Source: an uncultured Rikenellaceae bacterium
GTDB lineage: Bacteria; Bacteroidota; Bacteroidia; Bacteroidales; Rikenellaceae
Assembly: GCA_944326815.1 (NCBI GenBank)
Contig: CALVFI010000014.1
Span: 186,001 to 250,000, forward strand
Length of the DNA stretch: 64,000 bases
Direction of reading: 5' to 3'
Below the pieces are notes generated by a model. The model made no database searches, was not told the origin of the DNA, and saw only the letters and a program-made list of their open reading frames with translations. Below are positions 7,214-15,263 of the stretch, piece after piece; the stretch's first letter is position 1, and each line of letters opens with the position of its first letter. Both the position numbers and the translations under genes were made by a program.

Positions 7214-8050
7214 ATGAATCAGAAGTTTCCTGATGTCGATATGCCGATTGATTTTGTCACAGGAGTCGACATAACGGAAGAGATACTGAATCTCTATCGC
7301 TTTCCATGCCGTTTGAAAGCGGGGATTTTCGTATTGTGTTTGGAGGGGGAATTGCGGGCGATGATTAATTTATCGGAATATCGGATAGTGAAGAATGATT
7401 TCATTACACTCGCTCCTGAGAGTATCATCCAATTTTATGAGACGTCGGAAGATATTAAGGTGTGTTTTGCAGGATTTTCTTCCCATTTTTTGAACAATTC
7501 GAGTCAGCTGAAATTGAAATTCGAATTTGTTCCGACAGTTATGGAGTCTCCGGTAATCAGTCTCCGTCCTGATATAGCCGATATTTACAAAGATTATTTC
7601 TCCCTGATGAAAAAGGCATTTGTCTGTAATCGTTTGGATAATCCGGAAATAGTTCGTTGTATCCTCAATTCGTTATTAGAGGGGGTGCGCGGTTTTTATC
7701 GGGAGGAACCTAAAGATAATAGGCTATTGAGTCGCAAGGAAAATATTTGTCGGCAATTGGTTAAGTTGGTGATGCAACATTTTGCGACAGAACGCAAAGT
7801 GTCGTTCTATGCCGATCTGTTGCACATAACTCCTCAGCATTTGAGTGTTACTGTGAAGCAGGCCAGCGGAAAGACTGTGTCTGATATTATTGCTGAAGTA
7901 GTCATCATGGATGCCAAAGCTAAATTGAAATCGACGGATATGACAATTCAAGAGATCTCTTATTCGCTCAGTTTTCCCAATGTGTCGTTTTTTGGAAAAT
8001 ATTTTAAACGTTATGTGGGAATGTCTCCAAATGAGTATCGTCGAAGTTGA
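7214..8050 (+). CDS. AraC-family transcriptional regulator
   Basis: 278 residues. The N-terminal half is a cupin-like sensing domain (residues about 30-150, FVLCLEGELRAMINLSEYRI). The C-terminal 100 residues form the two-helix-turn-helix AraC domain, with VSFYADLLHITPQHLSVTVKQ as first HTH and a second ending FFGKYFKRYVGMSPNEYRR, the classic AraC signature. It is divergent from the DUF4925/TonB operon across a 158-base region and is the obvious candidate regulator of it; it also precedes the peptide/fimbrillin operon by 226 bases on the same strand, which is the other possible target. Confidence 0.9.
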   Translation: MNQKFPDVDMPIDFVTGVDITEEILNLYRFPCRLKAGIFVLCLEGELRAMINLSEYRIVKNDFITLAPESIIQFYETSEDIKVCFAGFSSHFLNNSSQLKLKFEFVPTVMESPVISLRPDIADIYKDYFSLMKKAFVCNRLDNPEIVRCILNSLLEGVRGFYREEPKDNRLLSRKENICRQLVKLVMQHFATERKVSFYADLLHITPQHLSVTVKQASGKTVSDIIAEVVIMDAKAKLKSTDMTIQEISYSLSFPNVSFFGKYFKRYVGMSPNEYRRS

Positions 8051-8276: not shown

Positions 8277-8447
8277 ATGGAGAAACAGATGAAATTGAAT
8301 GAGAGTACATGCGTGAATACCGTGTCTGGTGAAGCATGTTCGCAGAAAGAACCTTATGCTGCTCCGGTAATCGAGGTGGTAGATGTAAAGGTGGAACAAG
8401 GATTTGCTACTTCCATGCCGTCGTGGGAAGATCCGCAGCCGTGGTAA
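8277..8447 (+). CDS. 56-residue unknown peptide, Bacteroidales small-peptide type; candidate exported or modified precursor
   Basis: Short gene, ATG at 8277 to TAA at 8447. No signal peptide; the first half is polar with two cysteines (C12, C21). The second half has a patterned segment YAAPVIEVVDVKVEQGFATS (residues 27-46) followed by MPSWEDPQPW. From memory, short Bacteroidales proteins of the form Y-x-x-P-x-x-E-V-x-x-V-x-x-E-x-G-F-A-x-S with an acidic/aromatic tail are common near fimbrillin-like genes and are usually annotated hypothetical. The tail holds Ser, Glu, Asp and two Trp. It precedes the fimbrillin-like lipoprotein by 36 bases and would be co-transcribed. Function unknown; a precursor for the convergent PqqD/kinase/ABC cassette is one hypothesis, and a leader or accessory protein of the lipoprotein is another. 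Confidence 0.72.
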   Translation: MEKQMKLNESTCVNTVSGEACSQKEPYAAPVIEVVDVKVEQGFATSMPSWEDPQPW

Positions 8448-8483
8448 AAGGTCGTATGTTGAATTTTTGAAAAAGTATTGATT

Positions 8484-10655
8484 ATGAGAATGATATATTG
8501 GATGATGGCTGCTGCTGCGACGGTGTTGGTGGCAGGTTGCCAGAAAGAGGGTGAGAGTACGGTCAAAAAGGATGAAGGGGCATTCCGTTTTGAAGTTGCG
8601 GCAAAAGATTTCTCGGCACGTACGGCTCTCGGTGAAGATGGAAAGACGGTAACGTGGGTGGCTACCGATGAATTGGGTGTATGCGGTGTTTCGGGAGGAG
8701 TATTTTCCGGTAACCAAAAGTTTACCACTTCGAGTGAAAATATTACTCCGGATGGAGTCAGCGCTACATTCTCGGGCGATCCGCTGGTTGCCGGCGATTA
8801 TGTAGCTTACTATCCTTATGATGCCGCAAAGAACGGTTCGCTGGAGTTCACGTTGCCCGAGACGCAGACACAACAAGTGGATACGCGCGATCATGTGGGC
8901 GAGCACGACGTGTTGGTATCCGATCCGGTGAGTGTTTCGGATGGACAATTGTCGGCCAATCTGGTCTTCAACCGGTTGCATGCGCTGTTGCGTCTGTCTG
9001 TAAAATTGAATGGTGAGACCTCCGGGGTGACCGTTTCGAAGATTACCCTCGCATCGAATGACGGTTCAGCCATCTTCAACCGGACGACGACCTGCTCGGT
9101 AGAGGATGGGAAAACGGTCTTTACTTCGAGCAATCCGACCAATGCCCTCTCCGTGGAGGTAACCGGTTCGCAGGAGTTGGCCTCCGACGGGATGTTCCAC
9201 ATCTGGATGCTTGTCCCCGAGGTGAACTACGATGGGCAAATCGATGTTACTGTGACAACCTCCATGGGTACCTATACCTTTACGAAACCCTCAGCCAATT
9301 TTGTACGTGGCCAGAGTTATTACATCACCAGCGATCTGGGCGAAGGACTCGTGCTGCCGGTGACTGTCGCTTCGGTTGAGGATTGGAATAAGGCGGTGGC
9401 TGCCGTCAATGCTGCAGGGCAGCCCGCTACGTTTGTCATTACGCAGGATCTGACTCTGCCGGCTGATGTGCTCTTCCCAACGGTGCCTCTGACGCTGAGC
9501 GGTTCCGGTACGCTGACACTGACTCCTGCCGTTCCCGAATCGGCTACGGTTGCCGGGGATGTTACGAGCAATACGGCGCTCGATCCTTCGCAGTTGAATG
9601 CCGAGGTGACGGTTCCGGATCACCTGACGGTTGCTTGTGGTTTGGCGGTCAATAACGGTATCATTCGCGGCACGAATCTCACGCTTGCCGATGGCGGATC
9701 GCTTGCCGGTCCGGGGCGTCTCTCCCTTTCCGGGACATTGACGGTGGCTTCCGGGGCATCCGCTTCCGTAGCGGCAAATATGGTTGTGGGCTGCAACACC
9801 CTGACCAATGGCGGTACGCTGGCCAACAACGGTGCATTGTATTATAACGCCGGCACCCCCGGTACCGTAAACTCCAACAGTGCCGTTCTGACTACGGGCG
9901 TCTCCGTAACCGGTCCGCAGTTGCCCTACTCCGGATTTGACCAGTGGTATGAGTCTCAGGTTTCTTATATGGGCTTTATGAGAGGGACGGGTCAGTTTAT
10001 CGGTGAAAAGTCGGGTTCCAATAATGTATGGGCGTCGGGGAACGGTTCTGAGAAAAGTAGTGTTGGAGGCATTGCTGTATCTGGGACCAATCCTACCCAG
10101 CCGGCCGAATCAGGGAAAATACATGGCGGTGCCGGGGCCTTGAAGATGATCTCTGAACATGTGACGATAGTGATTGTAAGTAAATTTGCTGCCGGTAATG
10201 TTTTCCTCGGCAGTTATGATAAAACAAATACTACCGGTGCGGAAATGACTTTTGGAATACCTTATACCTTGCGTCCGTTGGCTTTGACCGGGTATTTCGA
10301 CTATACTTCCGGATTGATTGATTATAACAATAGCCAAAAAGTGGATAATCCATCCGTACAGGATCAGTGGGATATTTATGTGGCATTGACGACGAAAGCC
10401 TACTCCATCAATACGGATGATGATTCGACCTATCCTCAACTTGAGACGGATGATGCGGTTATTGCCTACGGTCGTATTACCAGTCCGGTTTCTACGAACG
10501 GATATCAGAAATTCCGGGTAGAGCTCAAATATAAAAATATGGTTGAAGTGCCGACTCATATTCTGATTACCGCTTCGAATAGCGTAGATGGCGCAGCCTT
10601 TACGGGTTCTACGTCGAGCGTGTTGTATTTGGACGATCTGCAGTTGGAATTCTGA
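8484..10655 (+). CDS. Fimbrillin-like lipoprotein with beta-helix-like middle and C-terminal PCMD domain
   Basis: 723-residue surface lipoprotein. The ATG at 8484 is preferred over a TTG six bases earlier. Lipobox LVAGC with Cys19. Residues about 28-285 resemble the fimbrillin/Mfa-like family (FSARTALGEDGKTVTWVATD, then PLVAGDYVAYYPYD, ending FVRGQSYYITSDL). Residues about 290-475 are Gly/Thr/Leu/Asn-rich with repeating short strands (LTLADGGSLAGPGRLSLSGT), suggesting a beta-solenoid. Residues about 480-723 match the PCMD pattern (SGFDQWYES, AGNVFLGSY, FGIPYTLRPLALTGYFDYTS, YLDDLQLEF), a putative carbohydrate-binding fold common in Bacteroidales surface lipoproteins. A cell-surface adhesin or glycan-binding role is inferred. 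The domain mix is unusual. Confidence 0.85.
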   Translation: MRMIYWMMAAAATVLVAGCQKEGESTVKKDEGAFRFEVAAKDFSARTALGEDGKTVTWVATDELGVCGVSGGVFSGNQKFTTSSENITPDGVSATFSGDPLVAGDYVAYYPYDAAKNGSLEFTLPETQTQQVDTRDHVGEHDVLVSDPVSVSDGQLSANLVFNRLHALLRLSVKLNGETSGVTVSKITLASNDGSAIFNRTTTCSVEDGKTVFTSSNPTNALSVEVTGSQELASDGMFHIWMLVPEVNYDGQIDVTVTTSMGTYTFTKPSANFVRGQSYYITSDLGEGLVLPVTVASVEDWNKAVAAVNAAGQPATFVITQDLTLPADVLFPTVPLTLSGSGTLTLTPAVPESATVAGDVTSNTALDPSQLNAEVTVPDHLTVACGLAVNNGIIRGTNLTLADGGSLAGPGRLSLSGTLTVASGASASVAANMVVGCNTLTNGGTLANNGALYYNAGTPGTVNSNSAVLTTGVSVTGPQLPYSGFDQWYESQVSYMGFMRGTGQFIGEKSGSNNVWASGNGSEKSSVGGIAVSGTNPTQPAESGKIHGGAGALKMISEHVTIVIVSKFAAGNVFLGSYDKTNTTGAEMTFGIPYTLRPLALTGYFDYTSGLIDYNNSQKVDNPSVQDQWDIYVALTTKAYSINTDDDSTYPQLETDDAVIAYGRITSPVSTNGYQKFRVELKYKNMVEVPTHILITASNSVDGAAFTGSTSSVLYLDDLQLEF

Positions 10656-10758: not shown

Positions 10759-11265
10759 TTAGGGCTGTTGGTTGCGACGAAGGGTTGGAATGTGTCGATA
10801 CAGGGCTCTCCGGAGTCGGCGCAAAGGGCGGAACAGGGCAAGGCGGAACAGGGAGCGGAAGCGCCAGCCGGCCGTGCAGACAATCTTCCGTTTCTCCGGG
10901 GTGGAAATGAGTCGGACGACGGCAAGGATGTCCGTTGGATTGGGAAATTCGTAAACCTGCCAGAGATTGTCGCCGCGCGTTGTGAGACGATGGCCGGTGC
11001 GGATGATCCGGTGCAGGAGGTGCCCGCCGCCATACCGGAACAGGATGATGTCGCCCCGATGCAGCTGGGAAGAGGCCCCTTGGGGGGTGTTGTCCGTCAC
11101 ATAAGGATGCAGTTCTACCTCCGTGCGTCCGTTCCGCAAGGCAGGCTCCATGCTGGTTCCATATACCCGAATACGGACTGAGCGTCCTTCTGCGAGCAGT
11201 CGCTCTATTTCGGCGAAAAATACGGCGTTGCCGATCGTTCTGGAGGTGACGGATTGCTGTTCCAT
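10759..11265 (-). CDS. S24/S26-type peptidase (signal-peptidase-like, Ser/His form)
   Basis: 168 residues. The ATG at 11265 is chosen because the open frame above it overlaps the kinase-like gene. Motifs in order: YGTSMEP with nucleophile Ser38, GDIILFRY (residues 71-78), LLHRII with His85 where bacterial signal peptidase I has its Lys box, and TRGDN (96-100). Ser/His with RGDN is the arrangement of SipW/ER-type signal peptidases. Unlike those, there is no N-terminal membrane helix; instead the C-terminus is strongly basic and amphipathic (residues 136-164). Last gene of the cassette, 13 bases after the HprK-like gene. A cytoplasmic peptide-processing role, for example removing a leader, is inferred from context. 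Confidence 0.85.
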   Translation of the reverse strand: MEQQSVTSRTIGNAVFFAEIERLLAEGRSVRIRVYGTSMEPALRNGRTEVELHPYVTDNTPQGASSQLHRGDIILFRYGGGHLLHRIIRTGHRLTTRGDNLWQVYEFPNPTDILAVVRLISTPEKRKIVCTAGWRFRSLFRLALFRPLRRLRRALYRHIPTLRRNQQP

Positions 11266-11278
11266 GGCTGAAGTGTGT

Positions 11279-12184
11279 TTATTGAGGACCGAATATGGCG
11301 GAGAAGGCCGCTTCGGCTGCTTGACGGTTGGGCAGACACTCGAGTCGGTAGGTGCGGACATTTCGAATCGTGTCGGAGAGAATGGTGCAGATCCGGTCGG
11401 AGAGCAGGGGGTCACGGGCGAATGCCGGAGGGCACGAGGGGTATAAGGCTCCGAATGCGTGTACGATCGGAAGTAGTGAGATCCGATTGTGGGGTGCCTG
11501 GCAGAGTCGGACCACGGCAGCGAGCGGAAAGCGTTCGTTGCGGAAGCAGGCGGTTTTGCCGCTCCACGGCGAGCCGTACACATAGGGAACACCCTCTTCT
11601 ATGCGCAGAATGGGACTGTCGTCGTTGAGCAGTGAGGATCCGGGAATATACTCCTGCCAGAGACGTGTATGGGTGCTTTTGCCTGTTCCGGATTCTCCCA
11701 GGAAGAGAATGGCTTTTCCTTGCCAGACGATGGTCGAAGCGTGAATGGGAATGGCTTTCTGAAAAACTCCCGCCAGGCCGTAAGCGGTCCAGAGACCAAA
11801 GCGGAGCATGGTTGCGTGGCTGGGGAGGGAGGCCTCGATGAGTGGATTGCCGGGTTGGAAGCGAAGATTGAAAACGTCGCCGTGTGGAGAGGTCATGGTC
11901 AGGAAATAGCCGGAGGGTTTCTCTGCCTCTGTATGCTGTTCGGTAGGCTGTGTGCGTCCGAAACGGCATTCGATGCTGTCGAACGAGAAGTCATATAGGG
12001 CATTCGCTTGGGGAATGGAAAAGCTATCGCTGCTCTGAAAAAGGAGAAAAGGTTGCTGGGCTTCGGAAGTACGGAACGTCTCGAAGTCGGGGGCCTCGCG
12101 GAGTAGTGCGATTGCTTTGGCACCCGTGACGCAGAGGTCGAATCCTCCGATGCGGAAAGTGAGTGTCGGGATGGATGCGGTCAT
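11279..12184 (-). CDS. HPr-kinase/PEPCK-like P-loop protein (HprK-related kinase)
   Basis: 301 residues. Walker A GESGTGKST at 163-171, followed by the acidic NDDSP at 187-191 and GSPWSGK at 204-210, the signature order of the HprK-like group that shares its fold with ATP-PEP carboxykinase. HprK proper is a two-domain HPr Ser-kinase/phosphorylase; this one has a different N-terminal 140 residues. Homologues in lasso-peptide clusters (ThcoK, PadeK) phosphorylate the C-terminal serine of the precursor peptide. The ATG at 12184 overlaps the exporter stop as ATGA, indicating translational coupling. The substrate here is unknown; an exported or modified peptide is the best guess. Confidence 0.82.
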   Translation of the reverse strand: MTASIPTLTFRIGGFDLCVTGAKAIALLREAPDFETFRTSEAQQPFLLFQSSDSFSIPQANALYDFSFDSIECRFGRTQPTEQHTEAEKPSGYFLTMTSPHGDVFNLRFQPGNPLIEASLPSHATMLRFGLWTAYGLAGVFQKAIPIHASTIVWQGKAILFLGESGTGKSTHTRLWQEYIPGSSLLNDDSPILRIEEGVPYVYGSPWSGKTACFRNERFPLAAVVRLCQAPHNRISLLPIVHAFGALYPSCPPAFARDPLLSDRICTILSDTIRNVRTYRLECLPNRQAAEAAFSAIFGPQ

Positions 12185-13890
12185 GAGGGGTCGATTTCGA
12201 TGATACGGTCGCAAAGTGCCAGAGAGGATTCCCGATGTGCGATGATCACTATGGTGAGCATACGACAGGGATTCGAGAGCTCTGCGATGGTACGTGTGAT
12301 TTCATGTTCTGTCTCATTGTCGAGGGCTGAAGTCGCCTCGTCGAAGAAGAGAACCTCGGCTCCTTTATAGAGTGCTCGGGCGATTCCGATTCGTTGTCGT
12401 TGTCCGCCGGAGAGCCGACTGCCGTTCTCCCCGACGGGAGTGTCGATTCCCTCAGGCAACTGGGCGACCCATGAGGAGAGACATACCTGATTGAGAATTT
12501 GGTGGATTTTTTCACGGTCGATATCACGTCGGCCGAAAGCGATGTTCTCGGCCAGGGTGCCGTCGATGAGGAGAACCTCCTGGGGAACATAGCCGCATTG
12601 CTGCTGCCAGGCTTGGCGTGTATCGGCAGTAAGAGGGATGTCGTCGATCAGAATCTCGCCCTGTTGGATCGGATAGAAACCCAGCAGGAGGTTGAATAGC
12701 GTCGTTTTTCCGCCACCTGACGCGCCTCGGATTCCGATGCGTTCCCCTTTGCGTATGGTTAGAGAGCAGTCTCTCAGTACGGGGTGATGGCCGTCGAACG
12801 AGAAGGTAAGTTGTTCTGCCCGGATTTCTCTCTGGAAAGGGAGTGGAGTGCTCTGGTTGCAGGAGTCTGTATGGGTGGAAGATGATCTCTCAGAGGCTTC
12901 GGACTCAAGTGCCGTGCGGACGATTTCTGCCGTATAGAGGTTGTTTTTGATTTGTGCCCATCCCCCCAGCAGAGAGCGTACGGAGGGCAGCAGTCGGATA
13001 GCGGCGATGGCGAATACGCCGAACAGCATGCGCAAGGAGCCCCCCGGGACAGTGAACAACACCAGCAGTGTGATACCGATTGCCAGACCGGTCTCTGTCA
13101 GAATGGGAGGAATGCGGAGCAGGGTTTCGGTCCGTTCGTCGAGCCGTGAGATGTCGTACAATCCTTTTTGAAAACGGTCGCGGATCAGGGGCATCGCCTC
13201 ATTAATCTCTACTTCAGCATACCCCTTGAGAGCCTCCTGTACGGTTTGTGTCTGACGTACACGCAGGCGGTTTCCCTCTTTGCCGTAATCTGTGAGGCGT
13301 CTTTTGACAATTGCGACGTAGATCCATACCAAAGGCAGGAAGCAGAGCGGCAGGAGTAGTGCCACACCCGGGGCATAGAAACCTAACGCGATTAGCAGTA
13401 TGAGAATGAAGGCTGCCTCTCCGGCCATGGACAGTAACGGTGCAAGCACCTTTGTTACGAAGGTGTGGCACACGTAATTGATCTCATGTGATAATCCGGA
13501 GCTGTTCTGTCGCTTGATGAAAAGCAACCCTCGATGGTGGTAGGAGGTGAAGAGAGCGTCCGAATAGTATCGGTACAGGGAGAGAAGATAGCGGCTTTGC
13601 CTGCGTGAGATCCATAGTGATAGGCCATTCTTCAGCAAGATAATGCCGAGGACTCCGATGCAGAGTACGATGGCAAAGGTCTCTTTCGACCTGAAATCTC
13701 CCAAGGTGTATAATTTTTCCAGCCAGGGGCTGCTTTCCAGGCCATCGTTATTCAGTACCAGCAGAAGTATCGGCAGAAAAGCGGCCAATCCCGCCAAGTC
13801 GAGTACCGCCCTTAAGGGCGCTGCTGCGACCATGCGTCGTCCCTGAGCTCGAAAGGCAGGTGGTATGAGGGATAGCAGCCGGCAGGTCAT
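12181..13890 (-). CDS. ABC exporter, fused membrane and ATPase domains (peptide/lipid exporter type)
   Basis: 569-residue half-transporter. Six predicted membrane segments in residues about 20-300, then an ATPase domain with Walker A GASGGGKTT near 390, signature LSGGQRQR, Walker B VLFFDEATSALD and switch IIAHRE. Position 5 of the usual G-x-S-G-S-G-K-S/T-T motif is Gly instead of Ser, a mild variant. No C39 leader peptidase domain is present, so any leader removal must be done by another protein, fitting the S26-type peptidase two genes on. Starts 3 bases after the nucleotidyltransferase stop. It would export the product of the cassette. Confidence 0.9.
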   Translation of the reverse strand: MTCRLLSLIPPAFRAQGRRMVAAAPLRAVLDLAGLAAFLPILLLVLNNDGLESSPWLEKLYTLGDFRSKETFAIVLCIGVLGIILLKNGLSLWISRRQSRYLLSLYRYYSDALFTSYHHRGLLFIKRQNSSGLSHEINYVCHTFVTKVLAPLLSMAGEAAFILILLIALGFYAPGVALLLPLCFLPLVWIYVAIVKRRLTDYGKEGNRLRVRQTQTVQEALKGYAEVEINEAMPLIRDRFQKGLYDISRLDERTETLLRIPPILTETGLAIGITLLVLFTVPGGSLRMLFGVFAIAAIRLLPSVRSLLGGWAQIKNNLYTAEIVRTALESEASERSSSTHTDSCNQSTPLPFQREIRAEQLTFSFDGHHPVLRDCSLTIRKGERIGIRGASGGGKTTLFNLLLGFYPIQQGEILIDDIPLTADTRQAWQQQCGYVPQEVLLIDGTLAENIAFGRRDIDREKIHQILNQVCLSSWVAQLPEGIDTPVGENGSRLSGGQRQRIGIARALYKGAEVLFFDEATSALDNETEHEITRTIAELSNPCRMLTIVIIAHRESSLALCDRIIEIDPS

Positions 13891-13893
13891 GAT

Positions 13894-15015
13894 CTATACC
13901 TTTAGAAAGTTTTTCGGATAGCGTATATGTGTTTGAATTGAGAGTCGGAGACGGGTGGCCAATCCGCCTTTGCGTCCGTATACGGCATGGTATTTCCACT
14001 GTATGGCACAAAAACGACGAATTTTGAAGCAGATGATTCGTAGTGGATTTCGTGACTGAATCGACCGCTTTTCGTGCAGAATGCTGTCCCAAATCTTTGC
14101 AGCCAGTTCTCGATCCGGAGTGTTCGTATTGGGTAAATATTCGACTGGTAACCCTAACTGTTCAGTAGCGAGCATCCCCAAGGCATTTGCAATGCGATCT
14201 AGGCCGGTATCCTGTAAAATTTTTTGCCAGGCTTGTTTGTCGAATTCGTCTCCGTGTACGAAGAGAAATCGTGCCCAGTCGCAGAGATGGCGAAGCCGGA
14301 TGTCGCAGGTGGTGAAGTGCGTGGCTGTATGTATCAGCAGGAACAGTGCGTTGAAATCGGCAGAGGGGAGATAGGGTTCATGCGTGTGGCTCTCCTCGTT
14401 CGGAAGCCGTGGAAGTTGTTTTTTGTCCTGCAGCAGAATCTGAAGTCTCGGCTCCAGCAGCCGATTGACGGCGAAGAGACGGACATCCAGAAAGTGACGG
14501 TGATTTTCTACGATGATTCCATCATATACGAAGGATGAGTGTTTGTCGCCTCTTTTTACGGAACTGAAATGTTCGGTTGCCAGTTGCATACCCTTCTCGT
14601 ATTGTCCGAAAAGCCAGAGGTCGATGTCGCCGCTCTCGCGATGGTCGGGAACCGAAAAATCCAGGGCTTGGCCGACCCCTTTGAGAACCATTGTGTCGAC
14701 TCCATGGCGATGGAAAAATGCCGTTAGTTCGCGGGTTGCAGTGAGGTAGTGGTTGAAACGCTTCTCTGCAGCAGCAGCATTGATGCCCCATTGTAGTTTC
14801 AATGTACGTGGCGGCTGCAATGTCTCCGGGAGACGCATCATTCCGTCGAATGCAATGGCTTGTACTCCTTGTCCTACGGCAGCGGCATAGATTTTCTCCC
14901 ATTCGGAAACCGTCAGTCCATGAAATGCCCCCTCTTCGGATCTTCCCCAAAGAGCGTTTCTTAACAAAGCGACTAAGGCCTTTTCCGATTGGGTTATGGT
15001 TCCAGAATGTGGCAT
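13894..15015 (-). CDS. Nucleotidyltransferase of the NTP_transf_5 type
   Basis: 373 residues. The ATG at 15015 lies inside the end of the PqqD-like gene (22-base overlap). The core is a Pol-beta-type nucleotidyltransferase: MVLKG at 109-113, then HRESGDIDLWL, where the D-x-D pair (D130, D132) would bind metal and nucleotide. The remaining C-terminal two thirds is helical (HTATHFTTCDIRLRHLCDWA region). Such proteins accompany PqqD-like and HprK-like genes in RiPP and capsule-type clusters, including the paeninodin lasso cluster, where their reaction is not firmly known. Here it probably acts on the same substrate as the kinase-like protein. Confidence 0.82.
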   Translation of the reverse strand: MPHSGTITQSEKALVALLRNALWGRSEEGAFHGLTVSEWEKIYAAAVGQGVQAIAFDGMMRLPETLQPPRTLKLQWGINAAAAEKRFNHYLTATRELTAFFHRHGVDTMVLKGVGQALDFSVPDHRESGDIDLWLFGQYEKGMQLATEHFSSVKRGDKHSSFVYDGIIVENHRHFLDVRLFAVNRLLEPRLQILLQDKKQLPRLPNEESHTHEPYLPSADFNALFLLIHTATHFTTCDIRLRHLCDWARFLFVHGDEFDKQAWQKILQDTGLDRIANALGMLATEQLGLPVEYLPNTNTPDRELAAKIWDSILHEKRSIQSRNPLRIICFKIRRFCAIQWKYHAVYGRKGGLATRLRLSIQTHIRYPKNFLKV

Positions 15016-15263
15016 GCGATCAGTTGATTGGCCCAGTCCTGTGCATCGTGCAGGGCGGTTGATGGATCTGTTTCGAATCTTTCCGTGAGTAGTGCGGCGA
15101 TATCGGTGACGGTAAAGTCCCGTCCTGCGAGGTTCTCCCAAAGCCATGCGGCCGTCGGATTCAGCGATACGATGCGTGTCATGTCGGCGTGACATTCATT
15201 TTGCATGATGACAATCTTCTCGCCTGCGATTTCACGGATTTTATATTCCGGTTTCAGTTTCAT
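14994..15263 (-). CDS. PqqD-like protein (RiPP recognition element type)
   Basis: 89 residues covering the complete PqqD fold: an N-terminal beta-hairpin (IREIAGEKIVIMQN), the helix with TRIVSLNPTAAWLWENLAG, a helix-turn-helix-like part (TVTDIAALLTERFETDP) and a last helix (DAQDWANQLIACHIL). PqqD-like domains bind leader peptides and present them to modifying enzymes. First gene of the minus-strand cassette; its stop overlaps the nucleotidyltransferase start by 22 bases. No PQQ biosynthesis gene is nearby, so a role in peptide recognition is favoured over PQQ synthesis. Confidence 0.85.
   Translation of the reverse strand: MKLKPEYKIREIAGEKIVIMQNECHADMTRIVSLNPTAAWLWENLAGRDFTVTDIAALLTERFETDPSTALHDAQDWANQLIACHILEP

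Follow-up and report, generated by a model that had tools for sequence, protein, structure and literature searches.

The DNA analyzed here, hereafter the window, is a 64,000-nucleotide stretch from an uncultured Rikenellaceae bacterium (draft genome of 1.93 Mb, completeness about 83%), and the question that it raises is whether a 56-residue ORF next to genes for peptide modification and export is a chance reading frame or a real gene and, if the latter, what its product would do with its neighbors (Table 1). Its translation (MEKQMKLNESTCVNTVSGEACSQKEPYAAPVIEVVDVKVEQGFATSMPSWEDPQPW) is exactly as the first-pass annotation described it, with Cys12/Cys21, the block YAAPVIEVVDVKVEQGFATS, and two Trp residues in the tail. 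The peptide and lipoprotein genes on one strand are followed on the opposite strand by those for the S26 peptidase, HprK-like kinase, ABC exporter, NTP_transf_5, and PqqD proteins. An AraC-type regulator is encoded at 7214-8050, on the strand of the peptide gene and 227 bp before it; such a regulator was not seen beside the relatives that were examined.

Table 1. Coordinates of the peptide gene, its subregions, and the neighboring genes in the window.
Feature	Position	Strand	Basis
Precursor peptide, 56 aa	8277..8447	+	Translation, alignment, profile search
Conserved block Y27-x-x-P30 ... E40-x-G42-F43-A44-x-S46	8355..8414	+	Conservation; roles inferred from LPP
Proposed core peptide A44-W56	8406..8444	+	Inference from LppA core A1-Q2-S3
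Lipoprotein, Mfa_like_1 + PCMD domains, immediately 3' of the peptide gene	8478..10655	+	
S26 signal-peptidase-like protein, proposed leader peptidase (Ser38/His85)	10759..11265	-	
HprK-like kinase, P-loop intact	11279..12178	-	
MsbA-like ABC exporter, without C39 peptidase domain	12181..13890	-	
NTP_transf_5 nucleotidyltransferase	13894..15018	-	
PqqD-type RRE protein (N35, D73 invariant)	14994..15263	-	

The peptide on its own matches no Pfam or NCBIfam family (E up to 1). A single-sequence query at a loose cut-off recovered relatives in 160 of 250 genomes of the same family, and a profile built from 30 relatives detected them in 156 of the 250 (E <= 0.001), with up to 19 copies per genome; the only other genome from the window's genus (64% complete) yielded none. 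The ORF thus belongs to a family that recurs far beyond chance, a large and so far nameless group of precursor peptides from gut bacteria. The relatives share the pattern Y-x-x-P-x-[IVL]-E...V-E-x-G-F-A-x-S, followed by a hypervariable acidic tail, and six columns (Tyr27, Pro30, Glu40, Gly42, Ala44, and Ser46) are invariant in the 30 aligned relatives. In a set of 100 non-redundant relatives, conservation is complete (100%) for Tyr, Pro, Glu (+13), and Gly (+15), in part because the filter demanded Tyr, Pro and, to some extent, Glu/Gly; it made no such demand on Phe (94%), Ala (91%), or the last Ser of the block (96%, with Thr in three more), although the profile favors them. Synonymous codons vary freely at the conserved positions, with all six for Ser and the full sets for Pro, Gly, and Ala represented, so that the constraint is on the amino acids rather than on the DNA. 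That the block is conserved and not part of a random ORF is thus borne out by the breadth of the family and by the conservation of the block.

The tail after the Ser has a median length of 15 residues, and 97 of the 100 tails are distinct; 27.5% of their residues are Asp or Glu as against 1.9% Lys or Arg, Trp is present in 73% of them, and Cys in none. A fixed leader joined to a variable tail is the anatomy of a precursor peptide. The fixed block is therefore the leader, while the hypervariable part is the extreme C-terminus, which revises the earlier picture of a patterned C-terminal segment. Cys12/Cys21, which had been listed as a feature, are incidental: they fall in a variable N-terminal stretch and are not conserved among the relatives.

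The first-pass annotation had further tied the element to a set of PqqD, HprK, and S26 proteins, and the family tracks this set almost perfectly. Across the 250 genomes, the counts for the peptide against the PqqD profile (both/peptide only/marker only/neither, as throughout) are 150/6/5/89 (p 1.5e-53, a statistic that ignores kinship), and the mismatches are mostly incomplete genomes (54-88% complete). In 80 selected genomes the counts are 42/0/1/37 for HprK and 42/0/2/36 for S26, so that the peptide family occurs almost only in genomes with the cassette and is not equally frequent in those that lack it, an outcome that supports the proposed recognition element for the cassette. The co-occurrence is not a single split between genera, for it is retained within the dominant genus g22 (104/4/3/28 for PqqD). 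Fimbrillin-like Mfa_like_1 genes, used as a control for the lipoproteins, are nearly everywhere (237/250) and hence explain nothing of the peptide's distribution. NTP_transf_5 (PF14907) is also associated with the peptide (134/22/7/87), and is missing from some peptide genomes; it was considered and set aside as a cassette marker, as most inspected copies end polysaccharide clusters without a cassette, and PqqD, HprK, and S26 were taken as markers instead. In peptide-bearing genomes (L132, L133, L138, L143, L146-L148), NTP_transf_5 often closes polysaccharide or sugar-nucleotide clusters away from the cassette.

The cassette itself is variably assembled, with PqqD, ABC, HprK, and S26 found together in g15 and g19, and PqqD standing alone in several g22 genomes, with ABC, HprK, and S26 elsewhere. 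These lone PqqD genes (L181, L184-L188, L195, L200) adjoin a gene for a small His/Cys-rich protein ending in LRAPP and a large gene of outer-membrane-receptor type; a further small gene, similar to a metal-binding domain, is often present as well. Most precursor genes are unlinked to the cassette. The earlier placement of the peptide near a peptide export and modification cassette thus holds for the window, but most relatives lie before lipoprotein genes instead.

Outside the family, the association recurs across the order, where 14 genomes match HprK strongly and 6 of these carry the peptide, as against 1 of the 66 others (p 6e-5); the other eight strong-HprK genomes gave no peptide match, perhaps because their precursors have diverged. 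Here the genes can be physically linked: the peptide gene lies directly 5' of an HprK-S26-PqqD-NTP_transf_5-ABC run in G265, between HprK and S26 in G478, and about 2 kb upstream of HprK in G458, and two peptide genes surround a complete cassette in G124. The last region (L272, 2245-17363) contains two PqqD genes along with the complete PqqD-ABC-HprK-S26 cassette, and its two near-identical leaders bear different tails, each preceding a large lipoprotein. In 80 named loci recruited by HprK alone, S26 is present in the flanks of all 80, and at least one motif peptide in 21, including those of Bacteroides oleiciplenus, Phocaeicola sartorii, P. faecalis, and Dysgonomonas, a frequency above even the density in the peptide-richest genome. 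The flanks of cassettes without a profile match yielded no convincing YxxP precursor. In one locus (L254, 6792-6929), a divergent precursor (...EQNILGGSG...) with a double-glycine-like leader end is encoded some 2 kb 5' of an HprK cassette.

The most constant neighbor of the peptide gene is a lipoprotein gene, which comes next after 67 of 78 assessable peptides versus 78 of 1117 background genes (7%; p about 1e-65; lipoproteins called by a simple lipobox rule). The paired lipoproteins are diverse, with BspA-type leucine-rich repeats, DUF4465, PCMD, fimbrillin-like domains, or weak BACON matches, and several have no Pfam match. In G113 (L055, 8010-8498) two different precursor peptides are encoded in tandem before one lipoprotein gene, and in G065 (L069, 6550-10067) two peptide-lipoprotein pairs stand back to back in divergent orientation. 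This pairing offers a concrete and testable clue to the function of the peptides: each may be co-transcribed with its lipoprotein and may function together with it.

In its enzyme types the window cassette equals the core set of the linear polyphosphorylated peptides (LPPs; lppA, K, B, S, D, N), a class of RiPPs (Popov et al. 2026, PMC13381572) whose leader carries the motif YxxPxVLxHQxIxFETxxS. The structure of LppB with this leader has been solved, with N33/D70 of LppB fixing the leader Pro and Tyr; LppK polyphosphorylates Ser3 of the core A1-Q2-S3, and LppS (Ser/His/Asp) cuts before A1, helped by LppB (PMC13381572). The YxxP motif is the target of this class of RRE (PMC13381572, PMC10368454). 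The window PqqD protein is confidently modeled (pLDDT 91), and among solved structures the model is best matched by the leader-bound lasso RREs TbiB1 and TfuB1 (for 5v1u, VIA Z 11.0 over 83 residues at 2.2 A); LppB (9x8z) was absent among the fold matches listed, though it is in the PDB sequence set, and the PqqD profile matched TfuB1 (4e-9) better than LppB (0.03). In the sequence alignment, PqqD N35 and D73, invariant in 99 of 99 sequences, pair with N33 and D70 of LppB. By this alignment, PqqD keeps the residues that contact the leader Tyr/Pro in homologous LppB, which favors the recognition-element proposal. In the S26 protein, whose profile relatives include SEC11A and type I signal peptidases and whose model (pLDDT 91) has signal-peptidase/LexA-type fold matches, Ser38/His85 are invariant in 114 of 114 sequences and Glu106 in 102; the sequence shows no N-terminal membrane helix. 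The Pfam/NCBIfam scan detected no C39 domain in the ABC protein.

Very probably, then, the peptide is a RiPP precursor, and its Bacteroidales system works as the LPPs do in Bacillota. The PqqD-type RRE would bind the leader, roughly residues 1-43, as a β strand via Y27-x-x-P30-x-I32, and the HprK-like kinase would phosphorylate Ser46 as the equivalent of S3 in the A1-x2-S3 core. By analogy with LPP, the likely target of this kinase is the invariant Ser46 rather than a loose Ser of the tail, as the first-pass annotation had suggested. The S26 serine peptidase is predicted to remove the leader at or near F43/A44, a site chosen by comparison with LppA, in which A-x-S makes up core positions 1-3 and S3 carries the phosphate. 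The site is uncertain, as the Tyr-to-Ser spacing is 19 as opposed to 18 in LPP and the F-3 E-2 T-1 residues at the LPP cut are not conserved. The other candidate, cleavage after A-x-S in accordance with the signal-peptidase -3/-1 rule, was dropped in favor of F43/A44. NTP_transf_5, where present, may decorate the phosphate, and the MsbA-like ABC protein would export the short acidic core. A single-copy machine could thereby serve many dispersed precursors, and, each being encoded just before its own surface lipoprotein, the finished peptide would probably act with or on that lipoprotein. Taken further, one machine might tune the surface genome-wide through many phosphorylated peptides, each capping, modifying, helping to assemble, or signaling for one particular lipoprotein; we offer this only tentatively, as a reading that is rather less likely than otherwise, but that would, if true, provide a cellular role for the unexplained LPP class.

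Other explanations were weighed against this LPP-like biosynthetic reading. A same-strand lipoprotein gene almost always follows the ORF at a distance of a few to 50 bp, and the ORF might serve as a regulatory upstream ORF, coupling or attenuating lipoprotein translation, with a sequence that matters only in cis. We consider this unlikely: its conservation is at the amino-acid level with free synonymous change, its presence depends on PqqD/HprK/S26 whereas Mfa-type lipoproteins are everywhere, and in G265 a peptide gene heads the cassette itself. Alternatively, cassette and peptides might be inherited baggage, gained and lost together without interacting, with the cassette acting elsewhere, for example on polysaccharide. 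That the co-occurrence statistics ignore the host tree and that NTP_transf_5 and some PqqD/HprK copies adjoin polysaccharide genes would accord with such a scenario, but peptide and cassette come and go as a pair, within genera as well as between families, the genes are physically linked in several families, and the YxxP of the peptide is the motif bound by this RRE class (PMC13381572, PMC10368454), leaving it very unlikely.

The similarity of the RRE to TfuB1/TbiB1, together with YxxPx[IVL], raises the further prospect of a lasso-peptide precursor, with the same YxxPxL leader, a B1-like RRE, and a cyclized core, and paeninodin-type clusters indeed contain an HprK-like kinase and a nucleotidyltransferase (PMC8498205). 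Against this, the B2 transglutaminase-like leader peptidase (PF13471) is present in 1 of 57 cassette genomes and absent from the window genome, no asparagine-synthetase-like cyclase was found among the Pfam-scanned cassette proteins of the window, and S26 occupies the place of the leader peptidase; a lasso product is thus extremely unlikely.

These comparisons place the LPP-like system among known ones. Double-glycine RiPPs and bacteroidetocins with PCAT exporters (PMC10352776) likewise occur in Bacteroidales and combine a leader and variable core with ABC export, but the window peptide has no GG motif, its ABC protein has no C39, and the RRE/kinase/S26 set is found instead. Phosphorylated lasso peptides (paeninodin, pseudomycoidin, bsf), in which an HprK-like kinase acts on a core Ser, share the PqqD-type B1, a YxxPxL or WxxPxL leader, the nucleotidyltransferase, and the ABC exporter (PMC8498205, PMC10368454), but differ in their B2 peptidase, which is essentially absent here. 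With the LPPs the likeness extends over a discrete PqqD-type RRE, an HprK-like kinase, a SipW/S26-type peptidase with a Ser-His active site, an NTP transferase and an MsbA-like ABC protein in the window (NTP_transf_5 lying elsewhere in many relatives), and the lack of lasso enzymes among the Pfam-scanned proteins of the window cassette. In the peptide it comprises the YxxPx[V/I/L] leader (YxxPx[I] in the window), the conserved Ser, the variable C-terminus, and an A-x-S that matches the LppA core one residue further from the Tyr. Instead of the full LPP consensus, the family has VExGFAxS, one residue longer; as the HQxIxFET part is unmatched, we call the system LPP-like rather than LPP. In a search of open-licence papers, no description was found of this family of peptides, nor of the cassette in any Bacteroidota, and since most precursors are scattered away from the enzymes, they are easily missed by cluster-based RiPP mining. 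Whereas the LPPs have no known role and were called restricted to Bacillota (PMC13381572), this LPP-like gene set is widespread in Bacteroidales, with Bacteroides oleiciplenus and Phocaeicola sartorii among the named isolates that carry it; what is new is this host range, the dispersed, multicopy precursors served by one, often split, machine, and their pairing with lipoprotein genes.
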